IMG/VR virus record: IMGVR_UViG_3300008267_001227
Coordinates: 1 to 25,469 of that record
Strand: one strand, 5' to 3'
Length of the DNA: 25,469 bases
Source: a virus
Positions 1,668 through 24,870 of this stretch are shown here, one piece after another. Position 1 is the first letter of the stretch, and each line of letters starts with the position of its first letter. The notes under the pieces are model-generated. The model did no database searches, was not told the DNA's origin, and saw only the letters and a list, made by a program, of their open reading frames with translations. The position numbers were made by a program, and so were the translations under genes.

Positions 1668-1979
1668 TTATTTTTCTGGGACAAGTAGTAATTTTTTTCG
1701 TTGTTCTCGAATTATATATAGTTGTTGTACTATAGTATCACCTTGTTGTTCTGTTATTTGTTTTAGAATAATGTGTTCTATTTCTAAATTAGAGTATTCT
1801 AATTGTAATTCTTTGAATTTTCTATTAATAGCATTCGCTTGATCAATAGTCATTACAACTACTGGTGTTTTGCCATCATCATCAATTGTAGTATAAGGAT
1901 ACTTATTAGTTGGTTGGGACCTCAAGGTTCCAAGTAGACTTAGGACGAACAGCAGGAGGAGTATTAAGTTTTTTTTCAT
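1668..1979 (-). CDS. Secreted coiled-coil protein, last gene of the lysis cassette
   Basis: This is a 103-residue protein with a clear signal sequence: MKKN, then a leucine-rich core at residues 5-17, with likely cleavage near LRS-Q22. There is no cysteine, so it is not a lipoprotein. Residues about 50-95 are a predicted coiled coil rich in Gln, Glu, Ile and Leu (KFKELQLEYSNLEIEH). Its first 74 bases overlap the 3' end of the i-spanin-like gene in another frame, an arrangement reminiscent of Rz/Rz1 pairs. An o-spanin would normally need a lipobox cysteine, which is missing, so that assignment is only suggestive. It could instead be a periplasmic partner of the upstream membrane protein. The stop lies nine bases before a terminator hairpin. 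Confidence 0.75.
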   Translation of the reverse strand: MKKNLILLLLFVLSLLGTLRSQPTNKYPYTTIDDDGKTPVVVMTIDQANAINRKFKELQLEYSNLEIEHIILKQITEQQGDTIVQQLYIIREQRKKLLLVPEK

Positions 1980-2220
1980 AGGTTGATACCTGCTCTGTTA
2001 ACGTTGAAACTTGTTCTGTTAGTTGTTGGTTAGCAGAATCTAATTTCTGGTTTTCAGAAGATAGGATTTGGTTTTGGTCTGTTAATATTTGGTTTTCTTT
2101 CACTAATGAAACATTTTCCTCAACAACAGTAATATGACCATCCCCAGCCATGAATACATCAGCTATAACAAATGCTACAACCAATAATAAAATACCATAT
2201 AAAGCTAATCTTTTTTTCAC
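1906..2220 (-). CDS. i-spanin-like (Rz-like) membrane coiled-coil protein
   Basis: This is a 104-residue protein. Residues 5-24 (LALYGILLLVVAFVIADVFM) form one N-terminal membrane span. Residues about 33-90 are a long coiled coil with a run of QNQI, ENQK and NQQL heptads. The tail is proline-containing (TPPAVRPKSTW). One span at the N-terminus followed by a periplasmic coiled coil is the topology of phage inner-membrane spanins, which fuse inner and outer membranes in the last step of lysis. It starts with an ATGA overlap to a holin-like gene, and its 3' end overlaps a secreted-protein gene by 74 bases. The position, topology and overlap support a lysis role; sequence similarity to known Rz proteins was not tested. 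Confidence 0.75.
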   Translation of the reverse strand: MKKRLALYGILLLVVAFVIADVFMAGDGHITVVEENVSLVKENQILTDQNQILSSENQKLDSANQQLTEQVSTLTEQVSTYEKKLNTPPAVRPKSTWNLEVPTN

Positions 2221-2507
2221 TTCTTACTTAATAAAATAATTTCTCTTAAATCTTTAAGTGCTTGAGTATTATTGTCTAATGAACTCTGAATTTTACTAGT
2301 ATCTGTTTTAATATAGTCATTAAGTTCTTTTTGAAGATCATCTACTTTCTTTTTCAGATCATCTTCAGCTTTCAATTGACGTTTTAACATATACCATAAA
2401 ACAGCACCTAACCCAAGTACAATAACACCTAATGCACCATATTGGGTTAATGTCTCAAATACCCCAAATGATGGAGTGGCTTGTAGAAATATAATTAATT
2501 GGTTCAT
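2217..2507 (-). CDS. Holin-like membrane protein, paralogue B
   Basis: This is a 96-residue protein. After a short N-terminus, FGVFETLTQYGALG leads into a membrane span at about residues 26-43. The span is followed by WYMLKRQ and a charged coiled-coil tail (about 47-96). Its first 65 residues match the neighbour encoded at 2504-2695 closely: FG.FE.L..YGALG, VL.LGAV.WYM.KR, then a K/E/D coil ending in KEL.D. The pair therefore arose by tandem duplication. One span plus a charged coil resembles small BhlA/UviB-type holins. The setting behind an endolysin and in front of a spanin-like gene supports holin or antiholin function. The extra 30 C-terminal residues distinguish it from its shorter twin. 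Confidence 0.75.
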   Translation of the reverse strand: MNQLIIFLQATPSFGVFETLTQYGALGVIVLGLGAVLWYMLKRQLKAEDDLKKKVDDLQKELNDYIKTDTSKIQSSLDNNTQALKDLREIILLSKK

Positions 2508-2695
2508 TTTCTATCTCTTAATTCTTTTTCAAGTTCATTGATTTTAGCTTGCATAGCATCTTTTTCAGCCATATTACGCTTGAACATATACCATCCAACA
2601 GCGCCTAATGCTAATACTACTAAACCTAACGCTCCGTAGTTAACTAACTGTTCGAATATTCCAAATTGGTTTGCTTCTAATAAAATATTTGTCAT
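2504..2695 (-). CDS. Holin-like membrane protein, paralogue A
   Basis: This 63-residue protein has FGIFEQLVNYGALGLVVLAL at about residues 11-30. The membrane span runs to WYMFKR, and a short charged coil (EKDAMQAKINELEKELRDRK) ends the protein. It is the shorter member of a tandem duplicated pair with the gene at 2217-2507, which it overlaps by four bases (ATGA). Holin families commonly use a short and a long form with opposing effects on timing. Here the two forms would be separate genes rather than dual starts, but that functional split is inferred. It lies five bases after the membrane-GAF gene and belongs to the same lysis transcript as the endolysin. Confidence 0.75.
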   Translation of the reverse strand: MTNILLEANQFGIFEQLVNYGALGLVVLALGAVGWYMFKRNMAEKDAMQAKINELEKELRDRK

Positions 2696-2700
2696 GTGTG

Positions 2701-3312
2701 TTAAATTTTTAAATGATTAGCTAAAACACCACCTAATGAAGTGGCTACTCTTAATAACTCCTCATCTTGTTCATGAGTTAACTTATGTTTTCTACCTGTA
2801 TAATCAATACCTAAGATAGCTATGAATCGTCCTTCAAAGTTTTTAATAGCATATAAGTACTGAGATTTGGTTTTGTATTCTTCAGCAAAGTATTTTAAAC
2901 CAAATGTTGAAGTAGTTTCATCTTTAAAATCATAGATATGGATTGAATCATCATCTAATAATTTATTAAAACTTCTAGAAAATAAAGCAACAGGTATATT
3001 CTTTAATGTTAATTGAAGTGAAGGAGCATTTGCTGATACTGTCTCATAGAATATAGAGAATTTAGCTATACTCTTACCTGTTGGATAAAAATGACCCCCG
3101 TTATGAAATTGACTAACCCATACTCGGTCAGCGTCATATTCTTCTTTAATTGAGTCTAATTTACTTGATACTAAAGCTCCTACTTCAAGAGCCTCAGTCA
3201 CCATATCACTTTTCTTCTTCTTAAATTTGTTATCAAACCACCATTTAAGAGATAATACTACTATGGGTCCAATAACGCCCCCAATCAGTGCTACCCAAAT
3301 CGCCTCAGTCAT
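2701..3312 (-). CDS. Membrane-anchored GAF-like protein in the lysis cassette
   Basis: I chose ATG at 3310-3312 (203 residues, MTEAIWVALIGG). It places a membrane span directly at residues 4-24 and starts eight bases after the endolysin stop; an upstream ATG at 3345 would add 11 residues overlapping the endolysin gene. After a KKKK cluster comes a cytoplasmic domain of about 170 residues with RVWVSQFHNGGH, then FSIFYE, a variable middle, and a C-terminal strand and helix pattern (FIAILGIDYTGR, then a final helix). This layout fits a GAF- or PAS-like sensor fold. A membrane-tethered small-molecule sensor beside holin-like genes suggests control of lysis timing, but no ligand can be read from the sequence and the fold call is moderate. 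Confidence 0.7.
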   Translation of the reverse strand: MTEAIWVALIGGVIGPIVVLSLKWWFDNKFKKKKSDMVTEALEVGALVSSKLDSIKEEYDADRVWVSQFHNGGHFYPTGKSIAKFSIFYETVSANAPSLQLTLKNIPVALFSRSFNKLLDDDSIHIYDFKDETTSTFGLKYFAEEYKTKSQYLYAIKNFEGRFIAILGIDYTGRKHKLTHEQDEELLRVATSLGGVLANHLKI

Positions 3313-3319
3313 CTTTATT

Positions 3320-4141
3320 TTATTTAAGTAAATTATAGTACTCATTAAAGTGTTTTAAACGATCAGGTAAACCAATTGTACCGCCGTTAACTCGTTTAGT
3401 AACCGCAGTGACAGTTGCTTCATCAGCTCCTTTATCACATATTGACCATAATTTGTTTGAATCGAAGAAAAACGCTGCTGATGCTAATGGGTATTTAGTA
3501 GCAACTAAATCAGGGTTAGCAACTGTATCCTCACCTATAAATTTAGCAAAACCAGTATAATTAGATTTTCCAGTTAATTGAATATAACCACGTCCACGAT
3601 ACTTATATCCTTCACCTGTTGATTCATCACCATTACCCATTCTTGAACCGTAAACACGAGATGCGATTTTCTCAGGTTGACGAGCATATGAGGCAGCTAA
3701 GTCACCAGGGAAATATTTTCCAAATATTCTCTTCAAACCATCAACTGAGTAGTTTAAGTTTTCGCTTATTGATTTGAATCCACCTGACTCATGTCCACAT
3801 TGTGCTAAGAAATGAGCTAAACGTAGTGGAGTAGTAATATTAAATTTAGCGGCTGTCTCAGGTATTTGAGCTAATACAGCATCAGGGATATGTCCTTTTA
3901 AAGCATCTAATTTAAATGAGCTAGGAGGAAGAGTTGTTACAACAGGAGTTGGAGCTGTTGCTCCAAACATTTTACTCCATGTATTATCTCCTACAATACC
4001 ATCTGCTACTAATCCATTTTTAGCTTGCCATTCTTTAACTTTAGCTTCAGTCATTGGTCCGAAACTGCCATCAGCTCCTAAACCTAATAGTGTTTGAAGT
4101 TGTTTTACTTCTTCTCCTTTTGATCCGTTTTTTAATAACAT
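3320..4141 (-). CDS. Endolysin: peptidoglycan-binding domain plus GH19 lytic domain
   Basis: This is a 273-residue protein. Residues 3-60 form a PG_binding_1 repeat (GSKGEEVKQLQTLLG, DGSFGPMTEAKVKEWQ, DGIVGDNTWSKM). A threonine/proline linker (61-75) joins it to a GH19 chitinase/lysozyme-like domain (76-273). That domain has HES at 117-119 with E118 the likely general acid, SENLNYS at 126-132 with E127 the likely second acid, and the conserved YRGRGYIQLTGKSNY at 181-195. It hydrolyses the glycan backbone of peptidoglycan to release phage progeny. There is no signal peptide, so it should need a holin. Holin-like and spanin-like genes follow immediately. It starts 30 bases after the FeoA-like gene. 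Confidence 0.93.
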   Translation of the reverse strand: MLLKNGSKGEEVKQLQTLLGLGADGSFGPMTEAKVKEWQAKNGLVADGIVGDNTWSKMFGATAPTPVVTTLPPSSFKLDALKGHIPDAVLAQIPETAAKFNITTPLRLAHFLAQCGHESGGFKSISENLNYSVDGLKRIFGKYFPGDLAASYARQPEKIASRVYGSRMGNGDESTGEGYKYRGRGYIQLTGKSNYTGFAKFIGEDTVANPDLVATKYPLASAAFFFDSNKLWSICDKGADEATVTAVTKRVNGGTIGLPDRLKHFNEYYNLLK

Positions 4142-4171: not shown

Positions 4172-4393
4172 TTATCTCGATTCAATCAGAATTTGATCAG
4201 CTTCAATCTCAGTTATAGTAGCAGCTAATTTATTACCTATAGCAACAATTAATAAATCTTTATTACGACCACATAATTTTATTTCTTTACCTACTTCAAT
4301 TCCCATTCCAATAATTCGCTCACTAGCCATATTTTCTTTAATACCAGTCACAATGTAAGCTCTAGGGTAAATAGTTACTTCAGATAATTTCAT
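4172..4393 (-). CDS. FeoA-like SH3-domain protein
   Basis: This is a 73-residue protein with the FeoA pattern: an N-terminal MKLSEV, then ERIIGMGIEVGKEIKL (about 25-40), a strand with NKDLLIVAIGNKLAATI, and a terminal EADQILIE strand. Bacterial FeoA is a cytosolic SH3-fold partner of the FeoB ferrous-iron transporter, and the same fold forms the C-terminal domain of iron regulators of the DtxR family. A stand-alone copy on a phage is unusual. No metal ligands can be assigned from sequence, so it may only reuse the fold. It shares one base with the upstream peptidase-like gene (4393) and lies just before the endolysin. Moderate confidence in the fold, low in any link to iron. Confidence 0.65.
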   Translation of the reverse strand: MKLSEVTIYPRAYIVTGIKENMASERIIGMGIEVGKEIKLCGRNKDLLIVAIGNKLAATITEIEADQILIESR

Positions 4394-4938
4394 TAGTTGG
4401 CAAAGTATAAACGTTCATGATTATATTTAGCTACTATATTCTTATTCGCTAACTTACCATATGAGTCTACAATATCAGAATATACTTCATTAAGTGGTTT
4501 TTTACTGGTAAATAGTTCACCTACCCAATTAGCAAATTGATTATTAGACTCGTCAACAACATTTTGAGGTATGTTAGGTAACCCACAGTAATATGCTTCT
4601 CCTACTTCACTAATAAACATTCCTGTATAGAAACCTTTTAATCCAAATCTATTTACAAATCGATCTGCGTTACACCAAATAAAAACATTATTGTCTTTTT
4701 TATTCAAATGCTCAACTAACCCGTTATCAATTACAAATAATCGATTAAAACCAATCCCAAATAAACCTGATGGTGATCCATGACCCATCATCATTACTCT
4801 ATCATGACTCTCAATTAACTCAATTATCTCATCTCTAGTTTTATCTTGAGTAATAACTGTTTTATCTTCTATACCTTCATAAATGGGTTTTAGGAAATCA
4901 GTTGAGTAATCTGATGGATGTATTACTAATGTTTTCAT
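4393..4938 (-). CDS. Possible caspase-fold (clan CD-like) peptidase
   Basis: This is a 181-residue protein. A strand rich in hydrophobic residues ends in VMMMGHGSPSGLFG (48-61), and a second ends in NVFIWCNADRF (84-94). A histidine-glycine followed about 36 residues later by a cysteine at the end of a buried strand (H53, C89) is the catalytic layout of caspase, CHAT and gingipain relatives. Later conserved-looking stretches are GFYTGMFISEVGEA (102-115) and DESNNQFANWV (129-139). It could be a protease or a catalytically dead relative. It overlaps its upstream neighbour by four bases (4935-4938) and shares one base with the FeoA-like gene. No signal peptide is present, so action in the cytoplasm is likely. 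The fold call comes from motif spacing only. Confidence 0.6.
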   Translation of the reverse strand: MKTLVIHPSDYSTDFLKPIYEGIEDKTVITQDKTRDEIIELIESHDRVMMMGHGSPSGLFGIGFNRLFVIDNGLVEHLNKKDNNVFIWCNADRFVNRFGLKGFYTGMFISEVGEAYYCGLPNIPQNVVDESNNQFANWVGELFTSKKPLNEVYSDIVDSYGKLANKNIVAKYNHERLYFAN

Positions 4939-5261
4939 TTTATTAATTTTTTAATTTTGATAATAACACGACGTTTAAAACAACTCAAAGTAGTTTGAAA
5001 TGTATTAACTGGTGTTTCAGTTTTTAATTCCCCAAATGCTTTTTTCATCGCGATTTTAATTTTAGGGTTAACTTTAATTAACTCAATAAATTTATCTAAA
5101 TGAGAAACTGATTTTGAATTCCATCTACCATTTGAGAACTCAGTTAATGTTACTCGTGTGTCACTTATTGTATCAAATAAGTAAACTGTAACTGTTTTGT
5201 CCCAACTGTCTGTAACGAATTGTAATTCTTGATTACCTGAAAGTGATACTGATTTGCTCAT
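4935..5261 (-). CDS. Unknown protein, 108 residues, basic tail
   Basis: The N-terminal 60 residues alternate strand-like segments (ELQFVTDSW, KTVTVYLFDT, TRVTLTEF), suggesting a small beta domain. Residues 59-75 form a basic helix (IELIKVNPKIKIAMKKA), and the end is strongly basic (FKRRVIIKIKKLIK), which could bind nucleic acid or membrane. It is the first gene downstream of the hairpin/promoter module at 5287-5318 and is coupled by ATGA to the peptidase-like gene. I recognise no family. Confidence 0.6.
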   Translation of the reverse strand: MSKSVSLSGNQELQFVTDSWDKTVTVYLFDTISDTRVTLTEFSNGRWNSKSVSHLDKFIELIKVNPKIKIAMKKAFGELKTETPVNTFQTTLSCFKRRVIIKIKKLIK

Positions 5262-6734: not shown

Positions 6735-7190
6735 TTATTTTTTATTATAAATATTATTGTTTTTTTCCTCAGCGCTAAGTAATCCCTTTCCAAATTCTTT
6801 TCTTCGTTCCCAGTACCTATCTTTTACATATTGATGAATAGGAAGTGGTTTACCATCATCATCTATTCGAACAAATATGATTTTAGTATGAGTCACTGTT
6901 TCTTGAGCACCTGTATAAACATTATGTTTTCTTACTTCAACATAAATGGTTATTGATGTGTTTCCAAAATCAACTACTTCACCATATATTTTTAATATGT
7001 TACCTACTTTAACTGGTTTCTTAAAAATCAATTCATCAATCTTTAAAGTAACAACTCGTTGTGTATCACAGATTTGGGCGGTGTAAGATGCAGCTGCGTC
7101 ATCAATTAAGGACATAATGGTGCCACCAAACATATTATCGTGAACACCTATGTCTCCTTTTTTACAAATGTAAGTTGTTATTAATTCCAT
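6735..7190 (-). CDS. Acyl-CoA thioesterase-like hotdog protein
   Basis: This is a 151-residue protein with the YciA/ACOT-type hotdog signature. N19-MFGG (19-23) leads into a central helix with DDAAASY (30-36), then the long strands RVVTLKIDELIFKKPVKVG and LKIYGEVVDFGNTSITIYVEV. In this family the Asn in the loop and the Asp in the helix act in thioester hydrolysis, releasing CoA from acyl-CoA; both are present. The C-terminal 30 residues are charged and likely disordered. It overlaps the upstream gene by ten bases and is followed by the gene at 6730. It is an unusual metabolic gene for a phage, possibly acting on host lipid pools. The substrate cannot be read from sequence. Confidence 0.82.
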   Translation of the reverse strand: MELITTYICKKGDIGVHDNMFGGTIMSLIDDAAASYTAQICDTQRVVTLKIDELIFKKPVKVGNILKIYGEVVDFGNTSITIYVEVRKHNVYTGAQETVTHTKIIFVRIDDDGKPLPIHQYVKDRYWERRKEFGKGLLSAEEKNNNIYNKK

Positions 7191-8785: not shown

Positions 8786-8869
8786 TTAGAACAAATCGTC
8801 CAATTCTGGTGGGCATTTGTCAATTATGTGTCGTTTAACAAATTGTCTCCACCAATTATATAATTTCAT
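8786..8869 (-). CDS. 27-residue basic peptide ORF after ClpP
   Basis: ATG at 8867-8869 opens a 27-codon frame ending in TAA at 8786-8788, six bases before a terminator hairpin. It overlaps the ClpP 3' end by 14 bases. The peptide is aromatic and basic at the N-terminus (MKLYNWWRQFVKRHIIDK) and acidic at the end (CPPELDDLF). A frame that fills the ClpP-to-terminator gap almost exactly suggests a real gene. A chance ORF of this length is possible, so confidence is modest. It could be a small adaptor for the protease next to it; that is speculation. Confidence 0.4.
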   Translation of the reverse strand: MKLYNWWRQFVKRHIIDKCPPELDDLF

Positions 8870-9428
8870 CAACAATCCCATATTTTAATGCTTCCTCAGC
8901 TGTAAAGTACCAATCACGTCTTGATTTTTTAACATCGTCTAATTGTTTTTGAGACACTGTTGAGTTTAATAGTAAAATCTCATCATATTGTTTCATTATA
9001 CGATTACATTCATCTAAATCATCTTTAATAATAGACAATTTATCAAATTGAGGATAACTATTTAAAGCCTCATGATACATAAATGTAGCATATTTACTAG
9101 CAATTCGATTCCACCCAGCAGCAAATATTGGTAACCCCATTGACATAGCGTAACCATAACAATAGGTATGGATTGGTGTTTTTGAGGTTTTAATTACACT
9201 TACTAAAGCAAAACCATCATAAATTACACCCCCAAAACTATTAACAACTAACTTAATTGGTTTACGTTCAAACTCTTTAATAGCAGATTCTTGCTCATCA
9301 TCATACTCATTAGCATCTAATATAAACTGAATGACTTCTTCAACTGATTCATTATCAATATCATTACTTAAAACAATACTTCTGAATTGGTCTTCTCTGT
9401 CAAAGTATCTATTTTTTCTACTAGTCAT
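8856..9428 (-). CDS. ClpP-like serine protease
   Basis: This is a 190-residue protein with the ClpP/crotonase fold. The nucleophile lies in GYAMSMGLP (S96), the histidine in YHE (H119) and the third residue in RRDWYFTAEEA (D172), so the triad is complete. The oxyanion-loop glycines are in NSFGG (63-67). The N-terminal 20 residues are charged and unlike the processing peptide of bacterial ClpP. Phages use ClpP-like proteases for head maturation or for degrading host proteins; no capsid gene is visible nearby, so the role is open. It shares one base with the upstream lipoprotein stop (TAATG) and overlaps the 27-residue ORF by 14 bases. Confidence 0.9.
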   Translation of the reverse strand: MTSRKNRYFDREDQFRSIVLSNDIDNESVEEVIQFILDANEYDDEQESAIKEFERKPIKLVVNSFGGVIYDGFALVSVIKTSKTPIHTYCYGYAMSMGLPIFAAGWNRIASKYATFMYHEALNSYPQFDKLSIIKDDLDECNRIMKQYDEILLLNSTVSQKQLDDVKKSRRDWYFTAEEALKYGIVDEII

Positions 9429-14657: not shown

Positions 14658-15833
14658 CTATATTTTAATAAGGGTGTTTTGATATTCATTCATTTGGATG
14701 ATATCTATTTTAAATATATCTAATTCAAATGAACCTATCTCACCATTGTCTTTAATTATGTCTGGTAGTTGTTGGATTATTTGGAAATTTTGTTGGTTTA
14801 ATTGAGTAATATCAAATGATACTAATATTTCATTTTGTTTTTCATTATCATAAGGTCTAATATGATTATAAAGATTAAATGATGTGTTTAATTGTTCTTT
14901 TTCGATATATTGTTTATAATCACAATCTACATAAATAGTTGAACACCATGGTTCTAAAACTTCTAATAATTGTTGGTTACAATTTTTAACTATAAAACCA
15001 ATATCATATTTTGATGATACAATTGGAAATTGATATTCATTGTATTTTGGAGGCGTACCCCACTTACGAATAAATTCTCTAGTCTGGTTATGGGCTAATA
15101 TGTTCCAATCATTTGATTTAAAATTTAAATCTTTAGTTTTAGAGGCATGTTCAAATTGTCCTCCCCTGCATGTTAAATGATAAACTAACGCTTCCCAACT
15201 TTGGATTAAATCATATCCATTTAATAAAAATCTATTAAATAAGTCTCTATCCTCACTGTGTGATTTCATAATAGGATCATGACCATTAACATCATTGAAA
15301 TCATCTTTATGTATTAACCAAGGAGCAAATATACCATTTGTTACAATATCTTTTTTATTTTTATCTACAAATTCATTAAACTCCTTTAATTTAAAACCAT
15401 CAACTATATCTAACTCAGGCCATAATCCAAAATCTAAAACAATTTTAGATGGATCTGAAGGATGCAGTGGTGGTTCTATTCTGGTAGCGGATACTACTGT
15501 TTTAGGTTTCCATTTAGAGTATAACGCCACATCAAATCCCTTTCCCATTATCATATCAGCATGATATATAACATTAAAATCAGTTTGAGATTCTTTGACT
15601 AATAAATTATAAGCATTACCTATACCAAATAATTTATCTGATTGATTTTTGATATATTTTATGTTGTTATCTTTACACCAGTTCTCAGTTCCGTCACTAT
15701 CAGCATCTATGAATACTAATATATCATGTTCTCTAGATGAGTTTTCTTTTATATAAAAAACAGCATGTTTAAGATATCTCAAATTATTCTTTGAAGTAAT
15801 ACAAAATGTAAATTTGGGTATATTATTTTCCAT
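14658..15833 (-). CDS. GT-A family glycosyltransferase (GT2-like)
   Basis: This is a 391-residue protein. The N-terminal domain has FTFCITSKNN (8-17), FIDADSDGT (41-49) and VIYHADMIMG (88-97). These are the nucleotide-sugar-binding strands and the metal-binding HAD variant of the DxD motif. About 240 residues of GT-A domain are followed by a C-terminal part of about 120 residues. That part reads like a second alpha/beta unit (DIGFIVKNCNQQLLEVL, EILVSFDITQLNQQ) without a recognised fold. It would transfer a sugar to a phage- or host-surface glycan. It is the last gene of the glycan operon, with the promoter TTTG touching its stop. It overlaps the next gene by 11 bases. Confidence 0.82.
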   Translation of the reverse strand: MENNIPKFTFCITSKNNLRYLKHAVFYIKENSSREHDILVFIDADSDGTENWCKDNNIKYIKNQSDKLFGIGNAYNLLVKESQTDFNVIYHADMIMGKGFDVALYSKWKPKTVVSATRIEPPLHPSDPSKIVLDFGLWPELDIVDGFKLKEFNEFVDKNKKDIVTNGIFAPWLIHKDDFNDVNGHDPIMKSHSEDRDLFNRFLLNGYDLIQSWEALVYHLTCRGGQFEHASKTKDLNFKSNDWNILAHNQTREFIRKWGTPPKYNEYQFPIVSSKYDIGFIVKNCNQQLLEVLEPWCSTIYVDCDYKQYIEKEQLNTSFNLYNHIRPYDNEKQNEILVSFDITQLNQQNFQIIQQLPDIIKDNGEIGSFELDIFKIDIIQMNEYQNTLIKI

Positions 15834-16512
15834 TTATTCCATCTATTATATGTCTATCCCAACCTATATGAGTAATATATGTTTCTAAGAATCTCATAGC
15901 AATCATTCCTTGTTTAGCATACTCTACTGATATGTCACATTCTAAAGTAACACCACCGCTTTGTTCTTCAGGAGTAATCCTTTCACATCCATTATAACCA
16001 TTAGGTAATTTCTTCCAATCACTAAGTCTTTTTAATCCTGGGTTTAGACTAAAACCATTCCATATACCTGTGTACTCTAACAATACACATTTTAATCCAT
16101 CTACTTCATACACATCTGGTTTCCAAGGGTGAGGAGCAGTAGTGTCATCTATACCTCTAAGCCATACTTGTAAAATATTATCATCGGCTTCTAAAACTTT
16201 CATTGAGTCTTCAATAAATCCTTTTTTCAAAAATAACCAATCTTCTTCCATATGAAAGATATATTCTGTATCTACTAATGAATAAGCATAATCTATAGAT
16301 TTAATTTGATATAATTTAGGGTCATTATAAATGAGTTCTATAGGAAATTCATATTTTTCTTTAACAAAATCATTACATCCAAAATTCATTCCATCATCTA
16401 TAATAATAAAACGTTTTAAAGGATATGTATTCATTTCAAAAAAACTATCTAAAGTTTTTTCTAACAAATCAGCTCTATTACAGGCTGTTAATACTACTGT
16501 TACTTCTTTCAT
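15823..16512 (-). CDS. GT2-like glycosyltransferase
   Basis: This is a 229-residue protein with the GT-A opening VTVVLTACNRADLLEKTLDS (4-23). The nucleotide site is IIIDDG (36-41) and the acidic motif is HMEEDW (87-92), replacing the usual DxD. Tyr- and Trp-rich loops follow (WNGFSLNPGLKRL). It ends at 229 residues, short of the typical GT2 length, with no membrane span, so it is probably soluble and cytoplasmic. It overlaps the upstream gene by 35 bases in another frame. Donor and acceptor are unknown. Confidence 0.8.
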   Translation of the reverse strand: MKEVTVVLTACNRADLLEKTLDSFFEMNTYPLKRFIIIDDGMNFGCNDFVKEKYEFPIELIYNDPKLYQIKSIDYAYSLVDTEYIFHMEEDWLFLKKGFIEDSMKVLEADDNILQVWLRGIDDTTAPHPWKPDVYEVDGLKCVLLEYTGIWNGFSLNPGLKRLSDWKKLPNGYNGCERITPEEQSGGVTLECDISVEYAKQGMIAMRFLETYITHIGWDRHIIDGINGK

Positions 16513-17389
16513 AAAATTTATTTATTTCAATTGGGAAATTTAAATGAGCTATTCTAGTGAACTCATCTTTTTTACTTATACTTGATATGTATTTTTTAAT
16601 AGTTTCATTAGGACGATGAGTATAACTTTCTCCTATTATATGATTTTCTAATATAAATTGAAACACACTCTTACCTTTTTGTCTTAATATATTACAACAC
16701 TCAATAATATATGTATCTTCTAAACCATAATGTCCTAATGACTCAGGTACCCCTGTTTTAATTAGAAGATCTTTAGATATTAAAGTGAACCACCCCCCAG
16801 CAAATTTAAATGTAGGTATTGATTTTACTTCTACATCTCCTATATCAGGTAATGTATCTTTATAAACATCTGCTACTAATTCATAATCTAATGGATAATT
16901 TAAAAATGATTTATTAACAATTACATCCCAAGTGTTATCCCACTGTTTTACAAATTGAGGAGTAAGTATAAATAAATCAATATTTTCTTCTTTTACAGTT
17001 TGATAAGCTTGAGTCATATAACTTAAGGTAGTGTCCTTAAATATAAAATCACAATCTAACCATATAAAAAAGTCAGCATCTAAATTATTATTTAAACTAT
17101 ATCTTCTTTGAGATACACACCCTAATATATTTTCATCACCCCAAAGTAAAGTCCACTCACACCAATCTAAAAATTTAGTGACTAATTCTTCAGTTCTTTC
17201 TTTAATATAATCTTTAGGTAATTTAGATTCATCCCAATTAGTTAATTTATCAGATAAACACATAGTAATTTCTACTTTGTATTTAACTGTAGTATCAAGA
17301 TAAATGGAATTTCTTTTTAAATTATATAATGTTAAAGCTAAATCCTCTAATTCTTGAGGTAAAGCAAATATAGTTATAACTCCTTTCAT
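16478..17389 (-). CDS. Glycosyltransferase-like protein with DCD motif
   Basis: This is a 303-residue protein. ITIFALPQELEDLALTLYNL opens a GT-A-like sheet, and FFIWLDCDFIF (107-117) carries the DxD-type motif (D112, D114). FAGGWFTLISKDLL and GLEDTYIIE (about 214-250) resemble the acceptor-side and GxED-type catalytic-base segments of GT2 enzymes. It has no membrane span. It lies one base after the neighbouring RTRFD protein gene and overlaps the next gene by 35 bases. It fits a glycan-assembly enzyme of unknown linkage. Confidence 0.78.
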   Translation of the reverse strand: MKGVITIFALPQELEDLALTLYNLKRNSIYLDTTVKYKVEITMCLSDKLTNWDESKLPKDYIKERTEELVTKFLDWCEWTLLWGDENILGCVSQRRYSLNNNLDADFFIWLDCDFIFKDTTLSYMTQAYQTVKEENIDLFILTPQFVKQWDNTWDVIVNKSFLNYPLDYELVADVYKDTLPDIGDVEVKSIPTFKFAGGWFTLISKDLLIKTGVPESLGHYGLEDTYIIECCNILRQKGKSVFQFILENHIIGESYTHRPNETIKKYISSISKKDEFTRIAHLNFPIEINKFYERSNSSINSL

Positions 17390-17390
17390 A

Positions 17391-18104
17391 CTACCTAATT
17401 AAACCCACATCTGATTTTTCCTCTAATGTAGGAATTGTTTTTACTTTAATACTGTTTTTTACTAAATGCCATTTTAGTAAATATTCATTTCTAAGTGGAG
17501 AGTCTTGTCCTGGCCATCCACCAAATAATGAGTGAAAGAAATCAACATCATCTGTAACATATGATATAACATTTGAAAATACTTCTGAGTATGTTGTCAT
17601 GTCTTGTTGTTTGCCTATTGCGAATACATCATAGTATCCTCTGTCTTTAACTCTAATATCAGTATTCCATTCTGGTAATGTAATACCTTCTTGAGGTAAC
17701 TCCAAATTAAATTTAGAGTAATCTATATCAAATCTTGTTCTAACAATATAATCATATTCTCCTTCAACTAATTGAATTGATTTATATATTGAGTAGAACA
17801 TACTTAAACTATTATTTAGAGGTTGTCTCCAAATAGGACATTTAATTCCACTAGCATCAAATACTATAGGTTTTTCTATAATATAATTTTTAGGTTTATA
17901 TAATTGAATAAGATCATTATAATCATTATCTGTTAACGTATATTGAGTATTTCCAAATCCAAAATTAGTTGATTCAAAATGAGGAGTTTTCCAAGTATGG
18001 AAATACACATCACAGTCATATTTGTCTAATAAATGTGTCTTTAAACTATTATAACTTTGTTTAAAATTCCTCGCTTGACCACTTACACAAATAGCTATTT
18101 TCAT
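17391..18104 (-). CDS. RTRFD-type glycosyltransferase-like protein
   Basis: This is a 237-residue protein. It opens with KIAICVSGQARNFKQSYNSL (2-21) and carries DYIVRTRFDIDYS (118-130) with R122, R124, D126 and D128. This pair of motifs is found in WavE-like and related lipopolysaccharide-core or capsule enzymes, for which glycosyltransferase activity is assumed rather than proved. The C-terminal half contains FGGWPGQDSPLRNEYLLKW, another conserved-looking stretch. It shares one base with the GDPD-like gene stop. Likely role: sugar transfer in the same surface glycan. Confidence 0.72.
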   Translation of the reverse strand: MKIAICVSGQARNFKQSYNSLKTHLLDKYDCDVYFHTWKTPHFESTNFGFGNTQYTLTDNDYNDLIQLYKPKNYIIEKPIVFDASGIKCPIWRQPLNNSLSMFYSIYKSIQLVEGEYDYIVRTRFDIDYSKFNLELPQEGITLPEWNTDIRVKDRGYYDVFAIGKQQDMTTYSEVFSNVISYVTDDVDFFHSLFGGWPGQDSPLRNEYLLKWHLVKNSIKVKTIPTLEEKSDVGLIR

Positions 18105-18541
18105 TACTTATAATTTTGAATATAATCACTACAAATTCCTAAACATTGAGAGATATCATCATTATGTATCTCAGGCATAACTGCTATACTATCTTTAATA
18201 GGTTGTTTACCTGGGTAAACCCATATGTATTTCTTTGAAGTCAGAGTTAATGTATCTTCCTGGTGCCAAAAGTAATTTATTTGAGGATAATTTTCTTGTA
18301 AATAAACTATAGCTTCTGGATTCTTACAGTGTACCCATAGTCTATAAAGAAATTGAGTTAACCAAGAGTGACTTATTAAATACTGAGGTTCATCATGACC
18401 TAGATATAATTTATCTTCTATAAACCATAAATCAACTTCTACATCAAATCCATTATCTAATGCTTCTTGAAGATATGAAGGAGAGTTTTCTCTTTCAGAA
18501 TTAGGACCAATTAGATTTCCTCTATGTGATATTAGTTTCAT
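18104..18541 (-). CDS. Short GDPD-like phosphodiesterase
   Basis: This is a 145-residue protein with the opening motif of glycerophosphodiester phosphodiesterases: ISHRG (H6, R7), then GFDVEVDLW (E35, D37) and YLGHDEP (H49). In the full enzymes these residues bind metal and act on glycerophosphodiesters such as teichoic-acid or lipid head groups. At 145 residues it covers little more than half of the usual TIM barrel of about 240, yet it ends cleanly before the next gene. It may be a genuine short family or a trimmed enzyme. It lies inside the glycosyltransferase operon, suggesting action on a phosphate-linked sugar or cap. Confidence 0.78.
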   Translation of the reverse strand: MKLISHRGNLIGPNSERENSPSYLQEALDNGFDVEVDLWFIEDKLYLGHDEPQYLISHSWLTQFLYRLWVHCKNPEAIVYLQENYPQINYFWHQEDTLTLTSKKYIWVYPGKQPIKDSIAVMPEIHNDDISQCLGICSDYIQNYK

Positions 18542-18543
18542 AA

Positions 18544-19404
18544 TTAATATTTTTCCCCAATATGTAATTTACGATCATCTCCTCGGTCTTCCAATCTATT
18601 TTCAGAAATAATCTCATGAAACATATGAACACCATAAGCTCTATACTCACCACTAAAGTGTACTCCACTTTGTTTTAAGCCAAAGAATAAATTATGTGGT
18701 CCACCCCAAGTTGAATTCATATCAAATACTTGAGGATGATAAGCTATTTCTCTACCTAACTCTAAAATATCATTAGATATAACATGTAAGTTAAAATCAT
18801 GGATATAATTATGAGAAACATAATTTATAGATGGATGGTAATCCATTTCTCCATTAGGAGATATTTCTTCATTGGGTAAATCATTATTATAATTATCTCC
18901 ACCTCTATAATATGTTTCAAAATCTGATGGGGTAAATTTTAGTAGATTTAATTTAGTTAGAATTTGATCATAGCTAATTTTTTGTTTTGCTCCCAATGTT
19001 GGGAGTGACCACATACATTTAGGAGTGTTATGTTCTAAAAATATTTTATTAAAATTATTTGAGACACAATAATCTGATTTTAACCAAAGTATTTTACCAG
19101 GTATATTTTGTAATTCTAAAGATAATCCTATATCAAACCAATTCCTTATGTCCTGGAGTAAATTCTTTTTATTAACCTCAGGATCATAAGGGAATATTAG
19201 AATATTTTCAATATAATTTTTAATGTCATACTTTTTAATTAATTCAATAATATCATCATTTGATAACTCATGTTCATGAGTATTATATATGATAAAATTA
19301 TTCCATACTATATCATTAGTTTGAAGTGATAATAATGCTCTTAAACTATAATCAGCATGTTTTAAATCTAAAGTAGTATGAGTAGTAAATATACAAGTGT
19401 TCAT
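18544..19404 (-). CDS. Glycosyltransferase-like protein
   Basis: This is a 286-residue protein. The N-terminus (NTCIFTTHTTLDLKHADYSL, DIVWNNFIIYNTHE) and ILWLKSDYCVSNNF (105-118) look like the core sheet and a degenerate DxD (SD at 110-111) of a GT-A enzyme. The middle is rich in Asn and Asp. The C-terminus contains TWGGPHNLFFGL, which resembles acceptor-site loops, and ends GVHMFHE plus a charged tail. The assignment depends on overall pattern and operon context. It starts one base after the next gene's stop (19406). Confidence 0.65.
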   Translation of the reverse strand: MNTCIFTTHTTLDLKHADYSLRALLSLQTNDIVWNNFIIYNTHEHELSNDDIIELIKKYDIKNYIENILIFPYDPEVNKKNLLQDIRNWFDIGLSLELQNIPGKILWLKSDYCVSNNFNKIFLEHNTPKCMWSLPTLGAKQKISYDQILTKLNLLKFTPSDFETYYRGGDNYNNDLPNEEISPNGEMDYHPSINYVSHNYIHDFNLHVISNDILELGREIAYHPQVFDMNSTWGGPHNLFFGLKQSGVHFSGEYRAYGVHMFHEIISENRLEDRGDDRKLHIGEKY

Positions 19405-19405
19405 A

Positions 19406-20023
19406 TTAACTAATTAATTTACGATATACATCAGCATCTATATTTTTTCTTTCATTAAATATTTCTAACCCACTTGTTTGTTCTGACTCACCACCCATAA
19501 CCCATCCTTCAATAGCGTAATTATTTTTACCAGTTTGTTTAATTTTGTCAAATAACCAATTGTCCCCATAATGTATTTTTAATTCATGAGGAATTGGTAT
19601 GTAAGAATTTTTATGTATAAAAAATAAACAAGCATAACAAGCCATTAGACTACCAAACTCTTCAACTCTAAATTCACCTTGAGGATTATCCCAACATTTA
19701 TTCCCGGCACCAATAATTCCTCTATCTTCTGTTATATATGGGTAAGCTAAATTAATAACATTCCAATCTGTTTCAACATCATCATTGACAATTAATAATT
19801 TATCATATTTAGCTAATGATACTCCTTTATTCCAAGCTGGGGTGACAAAGATATTTTCAGGCTCTTTAATATGATTTAATTTAGGTATATGAGATATATC
19901 TATATCCTGAGGAGCATTATCAATTAAAATAATTTCTCCCACTAATTCATTGTTAGAAATTTGAGCTAATCTATCTATAAATCCTTCAGATTTCCATAGT
20001 GTAGGTATAATAACTGATATCAT
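19406..20023 (-). CDS. Small GT2-like glycosyltransferase
   Basis: This is a 205-residue protein with MISVIIPTLWKSEGFIDRLA (1-20), IILIDNAPQD (31-40), TPAWNKGVSLAKYD (61-74) and LLIVNDDVETDW (77-88). These are in the order and spacing of a GT2 nucleotide-sugar-binding domain; the NDDVE segment supplies the metal-binding acids (D81, D82). It is close to the minimum length for the family, so acceptor recognition may depend on a partner. Three bases separate it from the upstream methyltransferase gene. Soluble, no membrane span. Confidence 0.82.
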   Translation of the reverse strand: MISVIIPTLWKSEGFIDRLAQISNNELVGEIILIDNAPQDIDISHIPKLNHIKEPENIFVTPAWNKGVSLAKYDKLLIVNDDVETDWNVINLAYPYITEDRGIIGAGNKCWDNPQGEFRVEEFGSLMACYACLFFIHKNSYIPIPHELKIHYGDNWLFDKIKQTGKNNYAIEGWVMGGESEQTSGLEIFNERKNIDADVYRKLIS

Positions 20024-20026
20024 ATT

Positions 20027-20596
20027 TTATTTTTTAAATCCGTAAAAGAATAAATCACAATGGTTTGTTTCTATTTCAAACTCATACTCTTTAAAATTAG
20101 CATCAATGTCTATACATTCTCTAATATCTTCTTCAGTTAAATTTTTATAATATTCATTATCCCAATTTTCACGAGATACATTAGGCATTGTTTTCCAATT
20201 AGGAAATTTTTCTTTACTTTCTTCTTCTAATGATTTTACTCCATGAACTGGTCTCCCAGTTGTAGCGCATGTAAATAAAAGCATACCATTAGGTTTAAGC
20301 ATCCTAACTGCGTTTTGGATTGTTTCTTTATAATATGGATTATGCTCAAAACACTCACATGATATAATAACATCAAATGTATTATCAGGAGCATCATAAT
20401 CTTGAGCAGGACATACTATATCTACTCCAGGTCCTGGACCTAAATCTAATCCTGAGTAATCACAATTTTCAAAGTATACATCTTCTGTACCGCATACATT
20501 AAATGTACCTATTCCTAAAACTTTTTTGTTAGTAAAATAATCAGGAAAAGTTGATTTAATTTTATTAACGTAATTGATTTGTTCTTTATGAGCCAT
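20027..20596 (-). CDS. SAM-dependent methyltransferase
   Basis: This is a 189-residue class I methyltransferase. The SAM-binding opening is KKVLGIGTFNVCG (24-36), a variant of the usual ExGxGxG. It is followed by SGLDLGPGPGVDIVCPAQDY (48-67), with the acidic residue for ribose binding at D51. Motif IV is FDVIISCECFEH (74-85), and MLKPNGMLLFT covers the post-motif region. It belongs to the Methyltransf_11 type that often methylates small molecules, including sugars. In this operon it probably adds a methyl group to a sugar residue or its nucleotide-activated form. Start three bases after the upstream gene. Confidence 0.85.
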   Translation of the reverse strand: MAHKEQINYVNKIKSTFPDYFTNKKVLGIGTFNVCGTEDVYFENCDYSGLDLGPGPGVDIVCPAQDYDAPDNTFDVIISCECFEHNPYYKETIQNAVRMLKPNGMLLFTCATTGRPVHGVKSLEEESKEKFPNWKTMPNVSRENWDNEYYKNLTEEDIRECIDIDANFKEYEFEIETNHCDLFFYGFKK

Positions 20597-20599
20597 AAT

Positions 20600-21952
20600 T
20601 TATTTATAATTTTCTAAGTAATTTTTTAAATCTTCTGGGGTTCCTAATCCCCACATTCCTTTAACATTAAATGTTCTAATTTGTTTACAATCTTTAATAG
20701 CCTGATTAAATACAGGGCAAACATAAAACTCATTATTTACACGAATATCTTCTTTAATCATCTCTTCAGCATATTTAACAAAATCAGAACCATGTTTCCA
20801 ATAATAATAACCTACTGTTGCTATATCTGATATTGGGTTCTTTTCAGCTACTTCAGTTACTAATCCTTTTTCATCTATTTTAGCAAATGACCATTTTGGA
20901 TGAGTAGCTGTGAATGTGACTATGCCTCCATCTGCTTCAGTTTCATTCATTTTATACATGAATTCATTTGAATCCCATTCAACAAACTGGTCTGAGTTAG
21001 CAAAGAATAGTGGGTTATTATTGTCTATATATTCTTTAGCCAATAACGCAGTACAAGCTGCTCCTTCGGTTAAACCATCTGTTTCCACTATTTTACACCC
21101 AGGAGTTAATAGGTTTAATAATGTATCTAAATTATATTTTTCACGATGTGCTTTCTGTACAACGTATATATAATTAGCCTCTAAATTTAGGTTTTCAATT
21201 ACAACCTGAATCATTGGTTTGTTTTTCACTTCAATAAGTGGTTTAGGGAATGTATACCCAGCTTGTTCAAATCTAGAACCAGCACCAGCCATTGGAATCA
21301 AAACATTAAGTTTTTCATCTTTCCATTTAGGTGTCATACTTACTTTTTCTTTATTTAAATGTTTATAGATATTATTATAAGTAATTTCTTTTGGAGAGCC
21401 AACTCTCATTACATTTGCTTTACTTCTACTTGCTGCTAATAACCCATAAGGTGAATCTTCAACAATTAATGTTTCTTCAGGTAAACATCCCATCATACTC
21501 ATTGCTTTCCAATACATTTCAGGATGTGGTTTACTATTCTTAACATCTTCATTTGATATGATTAAATCAAAACGATCAATAATATCAAATTTGGATAATA
21601 CTGTTAATACAGTTTTACGAATACTATTAGAACATACTGCTAACTTATAACCACTACTAATTAGTATATCCATACAAACCTGTAATTGTGTATTAGGTTG
21701 AAGGTTAGATAATGCTTTTAAAGTGTATTTTTGTTTATCGTCCCAAATCTGTTTATGAGAACTAATAGGCAAACCTTTTCTTTCAGTTAACATATCTAAT
21801 TTTTGATTTGTTTTTAAACCATCATAGATAGATAAATGTTCATCCCAAGATATAGAGTATTTTTCTCCTAATGCCTCATTTAAGGCATCGTAATGTATTT
21901 GCTTAGCTTCTACTAATACACCATCTAAATCAAATATAACTAATTTTATCAT
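20600..21952 (-). CDS. Fusion: HAD phosphatase plus sugar nucleotidyltransferase
   Basis: This is a 450-residue two-domain enzyme. Residues 1-195 form a HAD subfamily IA (beta-phosphoglucomutase-like) domain with FDLDGVL (D8, D10), a cap helix region, CSNS (107-110), K141-PHPE and EDSPYG (165-170). Residues about 214-450 form an NTP_transferase domain with VLIPMAGAGSRF (217-228), FPKPLIEV (235-242) and a conserved NSDQF segment in the catalytic centre. The pair would dephosphorylate a sugar phosphate and activate a sugar 1-phosphate as a nucleotide sugar. Similar fusions occur in bacterial capsule loci. It overlaps the GT10-like gene by four bases (ATGA). Confidence 0.9.
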   Translation of the reverse strand: MIKLVIFDLDGVLVEAKQIHYDALNEALGEKYSISWDEHLSIYDGLKTNQKLDMLTERKGLPISSHKQIWDDKQKYTLKALSNLQPNTQLQVCMDILISSGYKLAVCSNSIRKTVLTVLSKFDIIDRFDLIISNEDVKNSKPHPEMYWKAMSMMGCLPEETLIVEDSPYGLLAASRSKANVMRVGSPKEITYNNIYKHLNKEKVSMTPKWKDEKLNVLIPMAGAGSRFEQAGYTFPKPLIEVKNKPMIQVVIENLNLEANYIYVVQKAHREKYNLDTLLNLLTPGCKIVETDGLTEGAACTALLAKEYIDNNNPLFFANSDQFVEWDSNEFMYKMNETEADGGIVTFTATHPKWSFAKIDEKGLVTEVAEKNPISDIATVGYYYWKHGSDFVKYAEEMIKEDIRVNNEFYVCPVFNQAIKDCKQIRTFNVKGMWGLGTPEDLKNYLENYK

Positions 21953-22794
21953 ATATTATTCAATTGACATATTTCTTTTATTATACTCACTACTCTAGGA
22001 AGATAATTATTGTAATGTAAAGCTAATTGAAAATTTCCTTCCATAGCTTCTTTTTTAGACTCATAAAACTCAGGTGTTAAATTATTAACAATTGATATTA
22101 ATTCATCTACTGTTTGGAATGTAATAACACCATCCATATTAAAATATTCTCCTAAATTTGGACATCCCCAATATATTGGTAATGTTCTAGTTAAAAAGGC
22201 ATCTGTAATTTTTTCTGTAAAGTAATTTTTATGTTTAGTGTTTTCAACACCTATATGAAACATGCTTTCCCAGCATACATCTTTTCCATTTTCCCATGGA
22301 TGTTTATCATTTGTAGAATAAATAAAATTGATTGGTGAAGTTATTTTATCAGCATTATTAAAAATATTATGTCTTAAAAAATGTCCTTCAACTAAATATT
22401 TTTTACCACATAAAAATGAAATATTAAACTTTTTGTTATCAATAAACTCTGGGTAACGGACTTCAGGTATGAGTGCATTTTCGTCCCAAAATCTACAATA
22501 TCTATTAGACATCCCATATGGTAACAAAACTGAGTTAGGGCATGTGTTTAAGATGTCTTCGTTCCAAGTTAATATGCAACTAAAAACATGGTGATTCATT
22601 TTAGCCCAATCATGTAAACCAAATATTTCATTTGGTTCTGATAATATTAAAAAGTTATATGGGTTTTTATTTAAATCTTCTTGAGAACAAGGATAATCAT
22701 TAAATAAACTAATAGGTTTATCTTTTAAATATTCATCTCCATTTAAATGATGATCAAACATTTCTATAGGCATGTAGTGACACTTAATATACAT
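21949..22794 (-). CDS. GT10 fucosyltransferase-like enzyme
   Basis: This is a 281-residue protein. The C-terminal half has FHIGVENTKHKNYFTEKITD (179-198) and LPIYWGCPNLGEYF (205-218). This is the conserved GT10 segment FxIxxEN-x-YxTEK-x-PIxxG, which binds GDP-fucose in alpha-1,3-fucosyltransferases. The N-terminal half is variable, as usual for the family. The expected acceptor is an N-acetylglucosamine or glucose residue of a glycan. Its donor, GDP-fucose, would come from the product of the dehydratase encoded at 23893-24870 after a reductase step that is not in this window. Two bases separate it from the next gene. Confidence 0.83.
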   Translation of the reverse strand: MYIKCHYMPIEMFDHHLNGDEYLKDKPISLFNDYPCSQEDLNKNPYNFLILSEPNEIFGLHDWAKMNHHVFSCILTWNEDILNTCPNSVLLPYGMSNRYCRFWDENALIPEVRYPEFIDNKKFNISFLCGKKYLVEGHFLRHNIFNNADKITSPINFIYSTNDKHPWENGKDVCWESMFHIGVENTKHKNYFTEKITDAFLTRTLPIYWGCPNLGEYFNMDGVITFQTVDELISIVNNLTPEFYESKKEAMEGNFQLALHYNNYLPRVVSIIKEICQLNNI

Positions 22795-22796
22795 TG

Positions 22797-23417
22797 TTAT
22801 AAGGTATTATAAAAATTATTTTGTGATTCTTGCCTTGATATATGTTTATAATGATATAAAGAATATTCTTCAAATTCTGGTAGGTAAGCATATGTTTTAT
22901 ATCCATCTAATACCTCATGTAATTTATTTGTCCATTTAATATCAGGAGTATTTCTATATATTCTCCACTGGTAATCAGGCCATTGTACCCATCCTTTTTC
23001 ATTTTGTTTCCATCCCCATATTTGTAAATGTTGAGGTGTTATACCTTCTACAATGTTTATTCTAGGAGTTAATATAATATCTGATTCTGAGTTAGATAAT
23101 ATACCTGGGAGTATTTCTAATAATTCTTCATTAGGTAACTCATCAGCGTCAATTTGAAAAATATAATCACCAGAACACATTCCGTTTAATTCATTTTTCC
23201 AATCAGCAAAATGACCTTGGAATGCGCTTTCTTTTAAGATAATAAAACCTTCAGAAGAATATACACTTAATTGATATAATAACTCTGGGGAGGCTTTTGG
23301 TTTATCTAATAAAACACAAATTTCATCTTCAGATCGTTTATGTTGATGTAGGAAATTAAGTAAACGACTTATCTCTTCTAATTCATCACATACTGTGATT
23401 GCGTAACTAATTTTCAT
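22797..23417 (-). CDS. GT2 glycosyltransferase
   Basis: This is a 206-residue protein with KISYAITVCDELEEISRLLN (2-21), the acceptor-side HFADWKNEL (69-77) and YIFQIDADE (85-93) carrying the metal-binding DAD. The FADWKNE-type and QIDADE motifs are those of the WaaE/SunS-like branch, which adds sugars to lipopolysaccharide core or peptides. It is short, with a Tyr-rich C-terminus (EEYSLYHYKHISRQ). No membrane span. It is separated by 15 bases from the upstream conserved unknown gene, and by two bases from the GT10-like gene. Confidence 0.85.
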   Translation of the reverse strand: MKISYAITVCDELEEISRLLNFLHQHKRSEDEICVLLDKPKASPELLYQLSVYSSEGFIILKESAFQGHFADWKNELNGMCSGDYIFQIDADELPNEELLEILPGILSNSESDIILTPRINIVEGITPQHLQIWGWKQNEKGWVQWPDYQWRIYRNTPDIKWTNKLHEVLDGYKTYAYLPEFEEYSLYHYKHISRQESQNNFYNTL

Positions 23418-23432
23418 AACCTAAAGATAATA

Positions 23433-23891
23433 TTACTCTGGTAGTAGGCCAATATAACTTAAAGCATCTATAAAATCTCTTTCATCAAAATGTTTAAGAG
23501 TAGTCATGTCCATTCTATACTCATAAAACTTACCTGGTTGTTTAGGAATTGGGTATTTATGTTTTTCTTCTTCAGTTACAGGAATAGCTTTAACAGCCGC
23601 CCATTTCCATTCCTGGGCGTTGGTTCCATTAGCGAATATCATACCTTGTTTAGGTTCATTAATAGTTTGAGGTAACCAAGTTAACCCTGTTTTTTCATCT
23701 TCCCAAGCTAAATCTTTATACAACTCAGGAAGAGCTTCCATCTGTTCACTGTAAAATTCACTTTCTTTAGTCATTAAACTGTTAGTCCAATATCCACAAG
23801 ACAAAGACATCCAATTAGTAATTTCAGGTGTGATTTGTGTTTCATAACATAAGTCACCTCCTGATTTGGGGCATGTAATAATTTTATCCAT
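23433..23891 (-). CDS. Conserved-looking unknown protein in the glycan operon
   Basis: This is a 152-residue protein. The N-terminus has CPKSGGDLCY (7-16) and LSCGYWTNS (30-38). Three cysteines (C7, C15, C32) could bind a metal, though no standard motif is formed. Residues about 60-100 contain WEDEKTGLTWLPQTINEPKQ and NAQEWKWAAVKAI. The end is helical (KHFDERDFIDALSYIGLLPE). The well-defined motif blocks suggest a conserved phage protein unrelated to sugar transfer that sits in the operon between the dehydratase and the GT2 gene. Function unknown. Confidence 0.6.
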   Translation of the reverse strand: MDKIITCPKSGGDLCYETQITPEITNWMSLSCGYWTNSLMTKESEFYSEQMEALPELYKDLAWEDEKTGLTWLPQTINEPKQGMIFANGTNAQEWKWAAVKAIPVTEEEKHKYPIPKQPGKFYEYRMDMTTLKHFDERDFIDALSYIGLLPE

Positions 23892-23892
23892 T

Positions 23893-24870
23893 TTATTTTT
23901 TATAATAATTTAACCAATATTCTATCATTTCATCTAACATAGACTCAAATGTATAATCATGAGTCCATCCTGTCGCCGCTATAAGCTTTGAAGAGTCACC
24001 TTTAAGATTGTGAAGTTCTTCTGGTCTGATAAATTTCTCATCTTGTTTAACAAACTCAGACCAGTGTAGTCCTAATCTTGTAAAGACATAATTAACAAGT
24101 TCTTTAACTGAATGAGACACCCCAGTAGCACAGACATAATCACCTGGTTCGTCTAGTTGTAGTATCTCCCACATTGCTTTAACATAGTCTTTAGCATGGC
24201 CCCAATCTCGTGTTGCATCAAGATTACCTAATTTTAATTCATTAGATAATCCTAATTTAATTTTAACTGCTTCTTTACAGACTTTATTTGTCACAAAATT
24301 AGTTCCTCGTCTTGGAGACTCATGATTAAATAATATTCCATTAGAAACAAACATGTTATAAGAGTGTCTATAATTTCTACTTATATTATAAGCAAATACT
24401 TTAGCGCATCCATAAGGTGAAACAGGATTCATCGGTGTTGTTTCTCTTTGATAACTATCTTCATCTATGCTATTACCAAACATTTCTGAGCTACTAGCCT
24501 GATATACTTTAGTATTAGGTGATACCATTCTAACTGCTTCTAATATATTTAAAGCACCTATAGCGGTAGCGTTTGCTGTATATAATGGTTGGTCAAAACT
24601 AATTCTAACATGAGATTGAGCTGCTAGATTATAAAGTTCATCAGGTTGTATTTTAGATATTACCCTAATTAGAGATGCTAGATCAGTTAGATCAGCATAC
24701 TCTAATTTTAATTTAGGATAAATTTTATCTAATCGAGAAGTTTGATTTTCAGCTACTGAGTTACGTTTTAGTATTCCCCAGACTTCATAATCTTTTTCCA
24801 ATAATAGCTCAGCTAAATATGAACCATCTTGTCCATTAATACCTGTTATTAATGCTATTTTATTTCTCAA
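23893..24870 (-). CDS. gmd: GDP-mannose 4,6-dehydratase
   Basis: This is a 325-residue extended short-chain dehydrogenase. The NADP-binding site is TGINGQDGSYLAELLLEK (9-26). RNS at 36-38 fits the cofactor phosphate contact. The active site is YQASSSEMFG (123-132) with Y153 and K157 of YGCAK. In most family members the residue here at Ser127 is Thr, a conservative change. NGILFNHESPRRG and the RDWGHAKDYV segment are family hallmarks. It turns GDP-mannose into GDP-4-keto-6-deoxymannose, the precursor of GDP-fucose, GDP-rhamnose and related sugars. No GDP-fucose synthase gene is visible in this window. It overlaps the GT4 gene by 11 bases. Confidence 0.95.
   Translation of the reverse strand: MRNKIALITGINGQDGSYLAELLLEKDYEVWGILKRNSVAENQTSRLDKIYPKLKLEYADLTDLASLIRVISKIQPDELYNLAAQSHVRISFDQPLYTANATAIGALNILEAVRMVSPNTKVYQASSSEMFGNSIDEDSYQRETTPMNPVSPYGCAKVFAYNISRNYRHSYNMFVSNGILFNHESPRRGTNFVTNKVCKEAVKIKLGLSNELKLGNLDATRDWGHAKDYVKAMWEILQLDEPGDYVCATGVSHSVKELVNYVFTRLGLHWSEFVKQDEKFIRPEELHNLKGDSSKLIAATGWTHDYTFESMLDEMIEYWLNYYKK

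Follow-up and report, generated by a model that had tools for sequence, protein, structure and literature searches.

In bacteria, caspase-like proteases are known from CHAT/Craspase, gasdermin and SAVED-CHAT systems. In caspases, a small beta section lies between beta3 and alpha3, the strands beta3 and beta4 end at the His and the Cys, respectively, and loop L1 contributes to the S1 pocket (PMC4357240). Systems consisting of a DNA methylase, a paraMORC kinase and a receiver (DNA methylase - paraMORC HEF_HK - Response_reg_2) have been described without mention of a caspase or peptidase (PMC8011034). In the open literature searched, no report was found of a conserved phage-carried caspase-fold family or of a caspase-like gene closing a methylase - paraMORC - receiver cassette. 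The protein described here appears to represent a new family within a fold class that is already known; the family is carried by large phages and has a bacterial sister family in a position that we did not find reported.

The window, i.e. the whole stretch of DNA analysed, is the 25,469-base viral record IMG/VR IMGVR_UViG_3300008267_001227. It contains phage genes (ATP-dependent DNA ligase, GH19 endolysin, ClpP-like head maturation protease) and numerous glycosyltransferase and nucleotide-sugar genes. The open reading frame at 4393-4938 on the minus strand is real, and the features considered are as follows:

4393..4938, minus strand: caspase-fold family gene (fold predicted), 181 aa, without assigned family in public libraries
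4780..4782, minus strand: codon of His53 (GHG), predicted catalytic His at the C-terminal end of beta3, aligning with the HG of the C25, C14 and CHAT profiles
4672..4674, minus strand: codon of Cys89 (IWCNAD), predicted catalytic Cys at the C-terminal end of beta4
4909..4920, minus strand: codons of H7-P8-S9-D10, loop after beta1, putative equivalent of caspase loop L1 according to the topology
4597..4608, minus strand: codons of E111-V-G-E114 (SEVGEA motif), E114 being present in 52/53 members
4935..5261, minus strand: upstream ORF of 108 aa, 4-base overlap with the start of the caspase-fold gene
4172..4393, minus strand: downstream ORF of 73 aa, FeoA-like (PF04023), 1-base overlap with the end of the caspase-fold gene
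3320..4141, minus strand: endolysin with PG-binding and GH19 domains, two genes downstream of the caspase-fold gene
8856-9428, in the window: ClpP-like head maturation protease

Since the caspase-fold gene overlaps both neighbours, by 4 bases and by 1 base, it is part of a tight gene string. The initial annotation had proposed a caspase-fold peptidase on a phage, based on GHG (H53) and IWCNAD (C89) motifs that end hydrophobic strands about 36 residues apart. The motifs and their spacing proved exact, as the 36 residues from His53 to Cys89 can be read directly from the ORF translation and the strands are predicted at residues 47-52 and 84-88. The phage origin was borne out as well, by the phage genes in the window, by 73 loci in IMG/VR and by relatives in Lak megaphages. 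Searching the window in all six frames with the pattern HG-x(25-50)-hydrophobic3-C gave a single match, which was the caspase-fold ORF. A by-eye reading of the 181-aa sequence revealed no apparent secretion signal.

The AlphaFold2 model of the window protein, built on a 37-sequence alignment, showed a pLDDT of 95.4 and a pTM of 0.90. A second model, of the chromosomal member L091, which shares 25-66% identity with the other rows of its alignment, showed a pLDDT of 96.0; the alignments behind the two models share rows, and the models are not fully independent. In the window-protein model, strand 47-52 leads to H53 and strand 84-88 to C89, and the same arrangement was observed for L091. Both models comprise the order beta1-alpha-beta2-alpha-beta3(H)-small beta hairpin-alpha-beta4(C)-alpha-beta5-helices-beta. 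The predicted order of strands and helices, the small beta section and the placement of His and Cys resemble those of clan CD peptidases (PMC4357240), whereas the His-Cys spacing of 36 differs from the 42 in caspase-7 (H144/C186). Furthermore, compared to clan CD proteins, the window protein is very small, and its W-C-N-A-D motif is particular to the window family.

In a Foldseek search against the PDB, gingipain RgpB was found for the window protein at ranks 1, 2 and 24 (top match with a probability of 0.99 and a TM of 0.49). For L091, the c-FLIP protease-like domain was found at rank 1, followed by Craspase TPR-CHAT at ranks 2 and 3 (TM 0.53 and 0.51), an unnamed bacterial complex at rank 6 that is probably TPR-CHAT too, a caspase-4 complex at rank 15, SAVED-CHAT at rank 24 (TM 0.52) and metacaspases at ranks 26, 28 and 42. 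Clan CD proteins thus take rank 1 in both PDB searches with a best TM of 0.49-0.53, and the CHAT proteins are the best structural matches of L091 by TM (0.49-0.53). The PDB matches of both models are modest, with a TM of at most 0.53 and none with E<0.001. Two divergent members led to different clan CD families, which carries more weight than one of the searches taken singly. A search against BFVD gave one match (A0A1P8DJ94, E 3.8e-5), which was uninformative.

For a direct profile comparison, reference alignments of C25, C14, CHAT and C11 were built from Bacteroidota genomes, and 41 unrelated profiles served as null. With hhalign, the family scored 27.6 against C25, 23.9 against C14 and 19.4 against CHAT, while the best unrelated profile reached 25.8, so that the scores of C25, C14, CHAT and C11 showed no significant separation from the 41-profile null. 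In the rank order, C25 came first and C14 third, and the GHG of the family was in register with the HG of the C25, C14 and CHAT profiles. The Pfam models of CHAT (PF12770), C25 (PF01364) and C14 (PF00656) gave no match to the family, and PF01364 was not found in phage-bearing records. Gingipain/PorU (C25) provided the top Foldseek PDB match of the window protein and the top-ranked known-family profile; nevertheless, this profile match is not significant, and the best C25 matches lie in open frames of at least 1100 aa, whereas the phage protein is a standalone domain. Compared to CHAT proteins, the window protein has no TPR or SAVED partner domain. Of the Foldseek and profile check suggested by the initial annotation, the structural half therefore placed clan CD first, while the C14, C25 and CHAT profiles were not significant. 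Judged from the sequence profiles, membership in C14, C25, C11 or CHAT specifically is not supported.

Among the general libraries, Pfam and NCBIfam showed no match and PHROG no usable one for the 181-aa protein, no clan CD Pfam match occurred in any of 37 members, and PADLOC models gave only isolated single-member matches (E of about 0.004-0.009) among 29 members. Sequence searches of the PDB, whether with the protein alone or with the profile, returned chance matches only.

The connection to the known families is provided by a second family. The window-family profile found two distant proteins, L235 and L236 (E of 4e-8 and 7e-8 per genome), and three further proteins were found from L236; together they form a bridge family of 217-241 aa, which is also without a label in public libraries. 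Its hhalign score with the window family was 117 (P=7e-18), compared to a null maximum of 26 among the 41 unrelated profiles. The Cys motif of the bridge family, LLSC[NK]SN, is nearer to the canonical form, C25 and C14 take the next ranks behind the window family, and the two dyad residues of the bridge family are in register with the equivalent His and Cys of C14 and CHAT. One bridge protein matched PF01364 with E=0.018, below the cut-off; the catalytic assignment is based on the fold and the bridge family and not on one weak match. Altogether, the two high-confidence models, the topology, the Foldseek ranking and the bridge family make the caspase (clan CD) fold suggested by the initial annotation very probable for the 181-aa protein.

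The 73 viral loci in IMG/VR share 42-100% identity and lie on contigs of up to 340 kb, while the relatives in Lak megaphages of Prevotella show 26-29% identity. In genome bins, 20 loci with relatives were found, and a plasmid search gave no match. Five members (L086, L087, L091, L092 and L094) sit amid ordinary-looking chromosomal genes without virion genes around them; as identified by eye, the neighbours include aspartokinase, diaminopimelate decarboxylase, and ruvC or sbcCD. Only 8 of 295 Bacteroidales genomes showed any match, which indicates a rare accessory gene there. On the unrelated contigs L094 (89-5603) and L081 (4977-10531), the family gene has sbcD-sbcC next to it or nearby, a proximity that may have arisen by chance.

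H53 and C89 are invariant across the 37 aligned phage sequences, and both motifs are present in 72 of the 73 viral loci, the exception (L013) being a fragment that matches only from residue 54 onwards. Among 53 diverse members, H53 was kept in 52 and C89 in all 53; the proposal thereby passes the test set by the initial annotation, namely conservation of both residues in homologues. Residues G52, G54, G58, L59, W88, C89, A91 and N173 were kept in 100% of these sequences, D10, S110 and E114 in 98%, and H7 in 94%. The putative active site is hence the best-kept part of the protein, and the conservation of the motif pair across the family argues against a chance occurrence. The dN/dS of 0.01-0.19 in close pairs indicates a functional protein under strong purifying selection. 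From the predicted structure and the invariant dyad, the window protein is probably an active cysteine peptidase, so that the peptidase part of the original proposal seems likely without assignment to one of the known families.

A few members deviate. In a chromosomal member of a Bacteroidaceae MAG (L092:4998-5543), GHG is replaced by GRG, i.e. the predicted catalytic His is changed to Arg, and this protein is possibly a pseudo-enzyme. In a Bacteroidales genome, a member is split over two reading frames (L234 / L238, G253:C7:50415-50979), which represents a decaying copy or an assembly error. A member in a Desulfuromonadales bin (L088:1469-2311), in which a long insertion separates GHG from the Cys motif, adjoins phage-like genes (SSB and RecT-like by eye).

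The bridge-family genes occur in a constant setting. In all nine loci inspected (L243-L247 and L255-L258, all Bacteroidota; for example L245:272-5351 and L256:4367-9500), an ATPase/histidine kinase (paraMORC-like) is followed by a receiver-like protein of about 170-240 aa, with the caspase-like protein last. A C5 cytosine DNA methylase lies upstream of the kinase in eight of the nine cassettes, no methylase being seen in L247. Pfam detected HATPase_c_3 and HATPase_c in both full-length kinases scanned, HATPase_c in one shorter kinase, PF00145 in two methylases, and weak receiver matches; the remaining identities were read from sequence similarity. PF19192 and PF19191 gave no match at E<=0.05 to the scanned receiver-like and kinase proteins. 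The C5 methylase, the HATPase_c_3 and HATPase_c kinase and the receiver-like protein are shared with the described methylase - paraMORC systems (PMC8011034), in contrast to the phage gene, which has no methylase, kinase or receiver partners. By analogy, the cassettes look like immune systems and are regarded as candidates, in which we infer the caspase-like protein to be the effector.

The best overall explanation for the window protein is a clan-CD-like cysteine peptidase that acts inside the cell and serves in phage-host conflict (probability of roughly 0.55). The phage would make a small intracellular peptidase inside its Bacteroidota host, which would cut a specific protein during infection, with Cys89 as the attacking residue and His53 as general base. 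By analogy to caspase loop L1, H7 and D10 in the loop after beta1 may line the P1 pocket, and the near-invariant acidic D10 would, as a guess, fit a basic P1 residue. The favoured target would be a host defence or regulatory protein, because the distant bacterial relatives are the terminal gene of methylase - kinase - receiver cassettes. Taken for itself, the role in phage-host conflict is based on this analogy and is put forward tentatively. If the dyad is active, large Bacteroidota phages, including Lak megaphages, carry their own caspase-like enzyme. A wider reading would place a new caspase-fold family on both sides, as executioner of the Bacteroidota cassettes and as a catalytically intact, standalone jumbo-phage branch that disarms or redirects such systems by proteolysis; this is rather doubtful. 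The cassette relatives would offer a hypothesis of effector activation by a two-component-like sensor that is linked to a DNA methylase.

The initial annotation had offered a decoy, a counter-defence protease or a maturation enzyme as possible roles, all of them conjectural. The immune-like cassettes of the distant relatives favour counter-defence, which we infer by analogy, and the decoy and maturation readings are less favoured. As an effector-like inhibitor or decoy, the protein would resemble the last component of the cassette, bind its partner or substrate and block it without cutting. The clear homology to the cassette component is consistent with this, as is the shorter length of the phage proteins (about 181 compared to 217-241 aa), which are without the C-terminal extension of the cassette proteins. 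However, the dyad is intact, and a pure decoy would not require the dyad and the residues of the post-beta1 loop to be almost invariant. Moreover, the cassette proteins form one clade (100/99) on a long branch from the clade of phage and standalone bacterial proteins, so that the phage gene does not derive from a recently copied cassette effector and a recent capture is not supported. A decoy is accordingly unlikely.

A conserved partner could not be assigned from the gene neighbourhood. Clustering of the neighbour genes of the phage loci revealed no partner common to the whole family and no conserved defence gene; since no recurrent neighbour is kept across the family, no partner is claimed. 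In one clade, an uncharacterised protein of 348 aa, a protein with a DnaA C-terminal domain and one of 77 aa recur, and the 108-aa upstream ORF is conserved only among the close relatives of the window. A maturation peptidase processing virion proteins would fit the long persistence of the gene in large phages, in which the gene order is retained in part, and jumbo phages carry several group-specific peptidases (PMC7824862). Against this, a ClpP-like head maturation protease is already present in the window, none of the recurrent neighbours was recognised as a structural gene, and the related genes in Bacteroidales chromosomes lie amid housekeeping genes without virion genes, which makes maturation quite improbable.

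A Rossmann/flavodoxin-like fold outside clan CD, with the His and Cys in a non-proteolytic ligand or redox site, would explain why many of the remaining Foldseek ranks are taken by flavodoxins, receivers and dehydrogenases. It is very unlikely, as the separately predicted L091 model puts clan CD at the top repeatedly, the flavodoxin profile gave the lowest score of all with the window family (8.7), and caspases share both the small beta section that follows beta3 and the positions of the dyad. A function in lysis or its regulation is the least probable reading: in the clade of the window, the gene is followed at a short distance by the endolysin and probable holin/spanin genes, with overlapping ORFs on the same strand as the endolysin (3320-4141) and the small membrane-protein ORFs (1668-2695), but the endolysin adjoins it only in the close relatives of the window (14 loci), and the neighbours in other clades differ. 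The peptidase used in phage-host conflict remains the preferred reading.

Further observations concern other parts of the window. The region 1668-4141 represents a probable lysis cassette with the GH19 endolysin, in which two similar small membrane proteins (2217-2507 and 2504-2695) and two overlapping short coiled-coil ORFs with the look of a spanin pair (1668-1979 and 1906-2220) were found. The ORF at 6735-7190 encodes a hotdog/thioesterase-looking protein matching a PHROG of unknown function. Finally, a run of glycosyltransferase, nucleotide-sugar and methyltransferase-like genes at 14658-25462 suggests glycan modification by the phage.
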